Below, piece by piece: positions 27,606-39,226 of a stretch of DNA of 40,409 nucleotides. Position 1 is the stretch's first letter. Every line of letters begins with the position of its first letter. A program made the translations under genes and the position numbers. Below the pieces are notes generated by a model, which searched no databases, was not told the DNA's origin, and saw only the letters and a program-made list of their open reading frames with translations. Source of the stretch: Selenomonadaceae bacterium (lineage in GTDB: Bacteria; Bacillota; Negativicutes; Selenomonadales; Selenomonadaceae). The stretch covers positions 1-40,409 of the forward strand of contig JAFUYE010000137.1 in NCBI GenBank assembly GCA_017470715.1, read 5' to 3'.

Positions 27606-27713
27606 GTAAAACACTCCTTTCAAATACGCAGGGAATTATTTTGTCACGGGCGGCGAAATTCCTTTTTTGTCGACGAAAATTTTCTTGGGCGGTCACTTCG
27701 ATTCGGCGCGTTC

Positions 27714-27905
27714 GTCAATTTTGAGTTTGTTGATTTACTTTTCTTTTGCTTGCCCAAAAGAAAAGTAACAAAAGAAAACGGCACGCCTGCGCGGCGGGCG
27801 AACGGTGCGTTGTCGCGTTGAATCGGTGTTGTCGTCACCCTTTTGGCCGACGGTATTTGCATCACGCAAATGCGTCGGCGGGGAGCCGTCATCCGTGACG
27901 GCTCC
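27714..27905. repeat. Three-hairpin intergenic element, copy A
   Basis: Within the 397-base gap between the reductase and the alcohol dehydrogenase. Hairpin 1 is TTACTTTTCTTTTG (27735-27748) / CAAAAGAAAAGTAA (27755-27768), loop CTTGCC. Hairpin 2 is CCGACGGTATTTGC / GCAAATGCGTCGG (27847-27878), one bulge. Hairpin 3 is GGAGCCGTCA / TGACGGCTCC (27882-27905), loop TCCG. The same order, with the same loops in hairpins 1 and 3, occurs at 39046-39226, and both copies end next to a promoter sharing CTTAACGTG. A short reading frame across it contains LPKRKVTKE, similar to peptides often mis-annotated from such elements. Confidence 0.85.
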
Positions 27906-27960
27906 AAATTTCGGTAATGTTTGTAGACGAAAATTTTCTTGCCTTGAAGTTGACTTAACG

Positions 27961-32832: not shown

Positions 32833-32908
32833 TGGTGCCTCAGAGCGGAATCGAACCACTGACACGGGGATTTTCAGTCCCCTGCTCTACCAACTGAGCT
32901 ACCGAGGC
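32833..32908 (-). tRNA. tRNA-Phe (GAA)
   Basis: A 76-base cloverleaf including the encoded CCA. The acceptor stem is GCCTCGG/CTGAGGC, the D arm GCTCAGTTGGTAGAGC, the anticodon loop ACTGAAAAT gives GAA, and the T loop GGTTCGATTCC is standard. It is last in the Lys-Glu-Asp-Phe cluster and is followed by the terminator. Confidence 0.96.
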
Positions 32909-32944
32909 GCAACGTGATGTTGCATTTGATTTTGGTAAAAAAAA

Positions 32945-33021
32945 TGGCGACCCGGATCGGACTTGAACCGACGACCTCCGCCGTGACAGGGCGGCATTCT
33001 AACCAACTAAACTACCGGGCC
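32945..33021 (-). tRNA. tRNA-Asp (GTC)
   Basis: 77 bases with CCA. The acceptor stem is GGCCCGG/CCGGGTC, the anticodon stem GCCGCC...GGCGG with loop CTGTCAC gives GTC, and the T loop is GGTTCAAGTCC. Confidence 0.96.
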
Positions 33022-33025
33022 GTGT

Positions 33026-33100
33026 TGGTGACGCCAGCGGGATTCGAACCCACGAACCCGCCGTGAAAGGGCGGTGTCTTAACCACTTGACGATGGCGCC
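33026..33100 (-). tRNA. tRNA-Glu (TTC)
   Basis: 75 bases with CCA. The acceptor stem is GGCGCCA/TGGCGTC, the anticodon loop CTTTCAC gives TTC, and the T loop is GGTTCGAATCC. Only 4 bases separate it from tRNA-Asp. Confidence 0.96.
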
Positions 33101-33108
33101 ATACGTTA

Positions 33109-33184
33109 TGGTGGCTCGCCCGGAACTCGAATCCGGGACACCCTGATTAAAAGTCAGGTGCTCTACCAACTGAGCTAGCGAACC
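33109..33184 (-). tRNA. tRNA-Lys (TTT)
   Basis: 76 bases with CCA. The acceptor stem is GGTTCGC/GCGAGCC, the D arm GCTCAGTTGGTAGAGC, the anticodon loop CTTTTAA gives TTT, and the T loop is GATTCGAGTTC. It is first in the cluster. Confidence 0.96.
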
Positions 33185-39045: not shown

Positions 39046-39226
39046 TTTGAGTTTTTGAATGTTACTTTCTTTGCTTGCCCAAAGAAAGTAACCAAAGAAA
39101 GGGCACCTCGCGGGGGCGTTACTCATTCGCAATTCAAGCATTGCGGCAACGCGTACCGCTCGTGTCCGCAAGTGAAACATCCTGTTTCAATTGCGGACGA
39201 GGCCGTCATCCGTGACGGCCTCTTTT
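39046..39226. repeat. Three-hairpin intergenic element, copy B
   Basis: In the 306-base gap before the CMD gene. Hairpin 1 is GTTACTTTCTTTG (39061-39073) / CAAAGAAAGTAAC (39080-39092), loop CTTGCC. Hairpin 2 is a 16-bp stem with one mismatch (39164-39179 / 39183-39198, loop TCC). Hairpin 3 is GAGGCCGTCA / TGACGGCCTC (39199-39222), loop TCCG, followed by TTTT like a terminator. Relative to copy A, hairpin 3 has two compensatory pair changes, and hairpin 1 lost bases on both arms. A reading frame across it carries CPKKVTKERAPRGG; I regard this as a repeat-derived peptide, not a gene. Confidence 0.85.

Follow-up and report, generated by a model that had tools for sequence, protein, structure and literature searches.

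Copy A, one of two related copies in the window (the whole stretch of 40,409 nucleotides from a Selenomonadaceae bacterium that was analysed), is probably one insertion of a non-coding, non-autonomous mobile element that is recognised as folded single-stranded DNA. It belongs to a dispersed family in which stem and linker covary, and in which several copies stand at sites that are empty in near relatives and are flanked by duplications of the target. The head of the element would be a hairpin with an A/T-rich pyrimidine/purine stem, followed downstream by two more hairpins; a mirror-symmetric purine linker would lie on the stem as a third strand, and this triple helix would be locked by a pseudoknot, since the loop can pair with bases behind the linker. 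The structure would be maintained at the level of DNA and would arise when one strand is single-stranded, for example at a replication fork; machinery acting in trans would recognise the folded strand and copy the element to other sites, where long duplications of differing length would result.

The two copies in the window and their family

The sequence-only reading of the window had described three hairpins in the same order in copy A (27714-27905) and copy B (39061-39222), and they lie where it had placed them (Table 1). The loop of hairpin 1 is CTTGCC in both copies, as it had reported. Hairpin 3 reads GGAGCCGTCA-TCCG-TGACGGCTCC in copy A and GAGGCCGTCA-TCCG-TGACGGCCTC in copy B; the loop is common to both and the outer pairs differ on both arms, so that the paired changes are real. 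A T/A difference between the arms of hairpin 1 had also been seen, but it amounts to two T/A pairs and not to the single pair proposed: the arm has T4CT4 in copy A and T3CT3 in copy B, a difference of one T per run with two runs per arm. A short peptide is indeed readable, KVTKE running across the linker. As for the extent of the element, 27714-27905 holds the hairpins, but the inserted unit is wider. The pseudoknot, the mirror linker, the 22-bp duplication flanking copy A and the copy number are features beyond that reading.

Copy A, which sits between divergent genes, has a fold of -87.9 kcal/mol, against -61.5 for its shuffles (sd 4.16; z -6.35), and copy B has a z of -5.19; in both cases 0 of 200 shuffles are as low. 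The motif string, with up to two mismatches, occurs twice in the window, where the expected mean is 0.19 and 2 of 100 shuffles contain it two or more times. No Rfam 15 family was matched at the gathering score. Four tRNA genes are clustered on the minus strand of the window, at 32836-33184.

Table 1. Features of copies A and B, with positions in the window.
Feature	Position	Strand	Remark
Copy A, inserted unit, 232 bp	27688..27919	+	missing at the orthologous site of the relative G016 (L237)
Copy A, left target-site duplication TTTGTCGACGAAAATTTTCTTG	27666..27687	.	in G016 a single stretch of 22 bases matches both flanks
Copy A, right target-site duplication TTTGTAGACGAAAATTTTCTTG	27920..27941	.	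1 mismatch to the left copy
Copy A, hairpin 1 pyrimidine arm TTACTTTTCTTTTG	27735..27748	+	pairs with 27755-27768
Copy A, hairpin 1 loop CTTGCC	27749..27754	+	TGCC at 27751-27754 supplies the 5' side of the predicted pseudoknot, complementary to GGCA at 27780-27783
Copy A, hairpin 1 purine arm CAAAAGAAAAGTAA	27755..27768	+	
Copy A, third-strand (mirror) linker AAAAGAAAA	27770..27778	+	mirrors the purine arm; run-length covariation
Copy A, pseudoknot 3' side GGCA	27780..27783	+	
Copy A, hairpin 2, apical ATCAC	27846..27879	+	
Copy A, hairpin 3, apical TCCG	27882..27905	+	
Copy B, hairpin 1, loop CTTGCC	39061..39092	+	arms 39061-39073 and 39080-39092
Copy B, third-strand linker AAAGAAA	39094..39100	+	
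Copy B, pseudoknot 3' side GGCA	39102..39105	+	pairs with TGCC at 39076-39079
Copy B, hairpin 2, apical ATCC	39164..39198	+	
Copy B, hairpin 3	39199..39222	+	

The genome to which the window belongs (2.9 Mb) contains the element at 75 distinct places, found by BLAST with copies A and B (76 were extracted and a duplicate of L051 was dropped; some are cut by contig ends), so that the search for further copies that had been proposed as a check finds them in number; as DNA queries in this genome, copy A and copy B each give at least 40 scored candidates. Hairpin 1 was parsed in 67 of the 75, and 65 are long enough for alignment and energies. The exact four-T pattern alone occurs at 48 places in this genome, and a reversed control pattern at none. 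Within the genus the four-T pattern is matched in 16 of 25 genomes (that of the window included), with 0 to 87 places each; it is matched in 0 of 16 genomes from other genera of the class and, across the phylum, in 5 of 398 genomes and 3 of 267 genera. The 1.2-Mb genome G217, from a different and distant family of this phylum, has 8 exact-pattern copies with short loops.

The relative with the most copies, G021, carries a compact unit of about 108 bp from hairpin 1 to hairpin 3, preceded by a leader of about 13 nt that is conserved and followed by a short tail; no conservation is seen beyond -14. The stem of hairpin 2 varies and has an irregularity inside it, and hairpins 2 and 3 have in common the apical sequences ATCC, GTCC or ATCAC.

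An extra GCGAACGCTCACCAGTTCGCCTTCG stands behind the linker, at the position of the pseudoknot partner, in L026, L027, L031, L033 and L081 (as a variant in L073). By eye, the hairpin 3 region of L030, L042, L047, L053 and L074 contains another hairpin string, GCGCAAATGCTTGCCAGCGCGCATTTGCC or one close to it, as if a smaller repeat had been inserted there. Foreign sequence interrupts the hairpin 1 loop of L072, L082 and L084, all at contig starts, and of L057; the three contig-edge copies have in common a transposase-like 3' end, presumably IS30-like, that stops just before TGCCCAAAG, and L057 has another one. In L318 (G021:C46:3583-4846), three copies follow each other at a spacing of 213 bp, and an exact repeat of 109 bp is seen between copies, the pattern of a tandem duplication.

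Joint variation of stem, linker and loop

The T-run of the stem equals the A-run of the linker in 32 of 32 distinct strings from the window's genome, with runs of 3, 4 and 5, against a mean of 12.3 and a maximum of 21 in 2000 permutations; these strings were found by BLAST and not by pattern, which leaves their run lengths unconstrained. In a larger set, of which 177 of 180 strings fitted the run-length pattern, the runs are equal in 173 of 177 (permuted mean 92.6, largest 111), a figure that is inflated because some of the loci were fetched with patterns that fix the run lengths; among named-genome strings outside the scan pattern 13 of 14 are equal, which is uninformative (permuted mean 9.6, largest 13). 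The C/G positions shift jointly in all three segments in L106, L159, L233, L079 and L083, which are independent versions, and L094 has a C/G-shifted version one A short. Where a pair at stem positions 1-7 is T-A, the base facing it is A in nearly all strings; where the pair is C-G, that base is G in most of them, as counted in the pattern-biased set. An intrastrand triple helix needs a mirror third strand, a direct repeat being of the other order; the versions with five T and with TTCC tell the two orders apart, and the linker is thus a mirror and not a direct repeat. The layout is that of the PIT type, with pyrimidine arm, purine arm and purine third strand in mirror symmetry. This covariation of stem and linker is well supported, and its pattern, that of an intrastrand triple helix, suggests that such a fold may form.

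The loop of hairpin 1 in turn varies with the bases behind the linker. Over a set of 138 distinct motifs, drawn from viral contigs and named genomes without correction for relatedness, the longest loop-to-flank helix has a mean of 4.04 bp, against 2.62 with the flanks shuffled among motifs (sd 0.08, largest 2.90 of 200); since the search patterns leave loop and flank free, this test is unaffected by pattern bias. Pairing of at least 4 bp is found in 90 of the 138; the 0-3 bp of the remaining 48, and the 3 bp that by our reading the commonest loop class of G021 offers, count against a pseudoknot-locked element. Within the window's genome the loop classes differ, and most have their own complement after the A-rich linker, the exception being copies in which a further segment has been inserted after the linker. 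The earlier view that selection acts on structure and not on protein is borne out by the stem-linker covariation in the 32 strings and the loop-flank complementarity in the 138 motifs, and the covariation that was to be sought is present by counts made without correction for phylogeny.

Pairs were counted on ungapped sequences because in a MAFFT alignment (A1, 38 of 53 listed sequences) the loop classes had their hairpin 1 arms one column out of register with each other. Overall, the helices contain 4,676 Watson-Crick, 5 G.T and 7 A.C pairs: 2,616, 1 and 7 in the 83 distinct copies of G021, and 2,060, 4 and 0 in 65 copies of the window's genome. RNA helices that vary this much usually show many G-U pairs; the near-absence of wobble therefore favours selection at the DNA level, or else a copying process that perfects hairpins. 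Judged by sequence, pairing at the DNA level is thus favoured over the RNA reading that the earlier proposal of RNA-seq implies.

The second of these options could be the correction of quasipalindromes by template switching, which would give the almost wobble-free pairing that is seen. It is nevertheless very improbable that the hairpins were perfected by mutation and not by selection, in an element without a recognised fold: this leaves the loop-flank complementarity, the mirror third strand, the core common to many phyla and the insertions unexplained, and the loop classes show loop and flank changing together on an unchanged stem.

An RNA element of the bottom strand, spreading through an RNA intermediate like a SINE, is unlikely but better founded. 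A U-rich linker would then lie in the major groove of an A/U stem (U.A-U triples, with one C+.G-C), and an RNA intermediate would give long variable duplications and ragged ends; the duplications of 16-67 bp and the variable ends described below do resemble target-primed products. In 38 of 83 G021 copies, moreover, an open frame on the same strand ends 3-15 nt before hairpin 1 (83 of 86 copies had enough flank, and the frames were not checked as genes), although the leader itself may supply part of this excess of stops (TGA in TGAACGTT). According to a published survey (PMC4666352), purine-motif triplexes cannot form in RNA, whereas pyrimidine-motif ones can and are stabilised by T-A-T. Against an RNA stand the scarcity of wobble pairs, the lack of an Rfam family and the energies of the copies in the window's genome, which favour the top strand by 4.65 kcal/mol (sd of the mean 0.68; 47 of 65 lower); in G021 neither strand is favoured by energy (-0.26, 0.35). 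The wobble pairs themselves are too few to decide the strand. For an A/T-rich stem the bottom strand, with its pyrimidine third strand, may be the more stable one, and the hints from energy and from triplex chemistry would point to opposite strands.

Insertions, duplications and candidate movers

In the relative G016 the gene pair around copy A is present, the element is missing, and the flanking 22 bp occur as a single copy; both flanks of copy A align to these same 22 bases, so that 27688-27919 is an insertion with a 22-bp duplication (repeat score 19, against a threshold of 13). G021 has a compact copy at this target too, reversed and flanked by a separate duplication of about 16-17 bp; this is an independent insertion. 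For five further copies (L079, L027, L049, L032, L071), nine relatives were searched for the joined flanks. L079 has continuous empty sites in G016, G005, G017 and G022 (50-bp duplication against G016), L027 in G016 and G021 (20 bp against G016) and L049 in G016 (45 bp against G016). Less favourable to a mobile element are L079 in G021, which is not a simple empty site, and L071, which has no clean empty site among the nine relatives; L032 matches two overlapping pieces in G016. By eye, the 20-bp duplication of L027 spans the last codons of the upstream open frame, both copies reaching a stop in the same frame. Copy B, too, is less favourable, as it has no flanking duplication (best score 9); at its site, G021 has another copy between the two flanking matches, and only the downstream part is matched in G016.

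Direct repeats that flank a copy and score higher than the 99th percentile of mismatched pairs are found in 6 of the 64 copies used out of the 75 in the window's genome, copy A being additional, and in 6 of 58 under other end rules (17 of 75 dropped). The same holds for 16 of 86 copies in G021, comprising 3 tandem duplications (L318, and L309 twice), 10 clear cases of 16-67 bp and 3 doubtful ones (L269, L283, L300); in the clear cases the leader measures 7-20 nt and the tail 4-31 nt, variable ends unlike those of a classical transposase product. Among loci outside the window's genome, the duplication threshold is exceeded by 9 of 109 single copies and by 0 of 26 facing pairs from Proteobacteria, so that mobility is evident solely in the window's genus, with hints at the 9 single loci; L125 and L127, both titled Selenomonadaceae, have exact duplications of 27 and 16 bp. 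Mobility, as insertions and duplications, is well supported, and the earlier surmise of a mobile element finds its confirmation in the empty site of copy A in G016 and in the 75 places.

Target-site duplication, as expected of a MITE, is thus seen at the empty sites, with lengths that vary. DDE enzymes usually leave duplications of fixed length, IS1634 being the exception. We regard it as improbable that the element is a MITE of some DDE transposon which carries the hairpins by chance: outer ends like TGTCGGTAAA/TTTACCGACA do occur on at least one side of 15 of 75 copies in the window's genome, on both sides in three of these (L055, L066, L080) and inside the duplication of L079, but no such ends were seen in the compact G021 copies, the duplications range from 16 to 67 bp, and IS1634 transposase, which was thereby rejected as a mover, is above the cut-off in 0 of 14 genomes. 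The ends suggest that some copies, 15 in the window's genome, sit in a larger inverted-repeat element.

Two further families were searched as movers, the Y1 (IS200-type) transposases and the reverse transcriptases. Y1_Tnp (PF01797) has no match in the window's genome (G000, 95% complete), G010, G011, G015, G016, G021 or G022, and matches in 5 of 31 genomes of the genus. This tells against REP/BIME-like repeats moved by a RAYT (IS200-type Y1) transposase, an origin already disfavoured and hardly credible, even though the hairpins are short, intergenic and present in many copies, and close pairs in loci outside the window's genome mostly face each other (27 of 32 are +-); to our knowledge, IS200-type insertion does not leave long duplications. 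Reverse transcriptase (PF00078) has no match in G021, the assembly with the most copies (80% complete), nor in G010, G011, G015 or G016 (70-91% complete, with G021), and two in the window's genome, one of them above the cut-off, which would speak against spread through RNA as far as these incomplete assemblies reach. Y1, reverse transcriptase and IS1634 do not track copy number, a statement limited by incomplete assemblies, and the lack of a mover among these three counts against a folded DNA strand copied in trans. Among the open frames lying no more than 1.5 kb away at L093-L235, no neighbouring protein is common across unrelated taxa, the largest neighbour-protein clusters staying within Burkholderia/Paraburkholderia loci; the absence of a shared neighbour counts in favour of machinery that would act in trans.

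Distribution and relation to known repeats

The core pattern is present in many phyla, in line with the similar strings in unrelated bacteria of which the sequence-only reading had spoken. A scan of named genomes gave at least 120 stretches, with taxa taken from record titles; the listed matches fall in Selenomonadales, Clostridia, Burkholderiales, Xanthomonas and relatives, Stutzerimonas, Methylomonas, Aeromonas, Pasteurella, Desulfobacterales, Nitrospirae, Elusimicrobia, Lentisphaerae, Bacteroidetes, Saccharibacteria and Buchananbacteria, and some of the remotest taxa have weak loop-flank pairing. The core is also found in 23 viral-contig stretches and in 21 plasmid or chromid records; a single 51-base query at E 0.01 gave 0 matches in 50,697 phage records and 0 in 20,395 E. 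coli records. The presence of the core in many phyla suggests a general partner. At several Paraburkholderia loci, L145 and L194 among them, two copies that face each other at a distance of 320-600 bp make up a long, imperfect inverted repeat, and each core has a G/C hairpin on its outer side.

No paper title was found in the literature that describes the present element, and the nearest published kind is a class II intrastrand triplex repeat of the purine motif, known from E. coli as BoxC, PIT element or TM_ECO (PMC4666352). The two agree in the order of their domains (pyrimidine arm, loop, purine arm, short loop, mirror purine third strand), in their many dispersed copies and facing pairs, and in their patchy numbers between related genomes. 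They differ in composition, the present element being A/T-rich (ACT3-5CTTT) where the paper favours G/C-rich motifs: the G/C-rich BoxC/TM_ECO consensus CCCTCNCCC...GGGNGAGGG is not found in the present motif, and the 51-nt query of the latter matches no E. coli genome at E 0.01. The present element further adds the loop-flank pairing, two more hairpins and insertion with long duplications. In 15 examined of the 23 E. coli K-12 motifs listed in the paper, loop-flank complementarity extends over 2-3 bases; the pseudoknot is thus not a feature of BoxC/PIT, and the word is not used in the paper (PMC4666352). For an E. coli motif of the same kind, the published footprinting lent no support to a triplex that is stable in the cell (PMC4666352), which counts against the proposed fold.

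Like REP/BIME, the element is a small non-coding hairpin repeat in many copies, with facing pairs in Proteobacteria, but its carriers (the window's genome and the high-copy relatives) have no Y1 match, its target duplications are long, and it has a predicted triplex-pseudoknot head. Like a MITE, it is short, non-coding and dispersed, with target-site duplication and, in some copies of the window's genome, inverted ends; it differs in its compact copies, in which no terminal inverted repeats were seen, and in a duplication whose length is not fixed. The pseudoknot of telomerase RNA has a U.A-U triple-helix architecture, and its topology would be the same if the bottom strand were read as RNA; the present element lacks the wobble signature, and the likeness is one of topology.

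New here is an A/T-rich, putatively pseudoknot-locked motif that is part of a three-hairpin mobile unit and occurs across phyla. Bacterial intrastrand triplex repeats had been catalogued before, with no explanation of how they spread. The joint change of three strands, the predicted locking pseudoknot and the empty sites in near relatives make two questions testable, namely whether cells really contain such triplexes and by what means they are moved. It is a tentative extension, with perhaps a modest chance of being right, that these elements form a cross-phylum mobile class whose moving form would be a single strand folded as a pseudoknot-locked triplex, placed by hypothetical machinery with duplications of 16-67 bp: a bacterial counterpart of SINEs, of which BoxC would possibly be a G/C-rich cousin.
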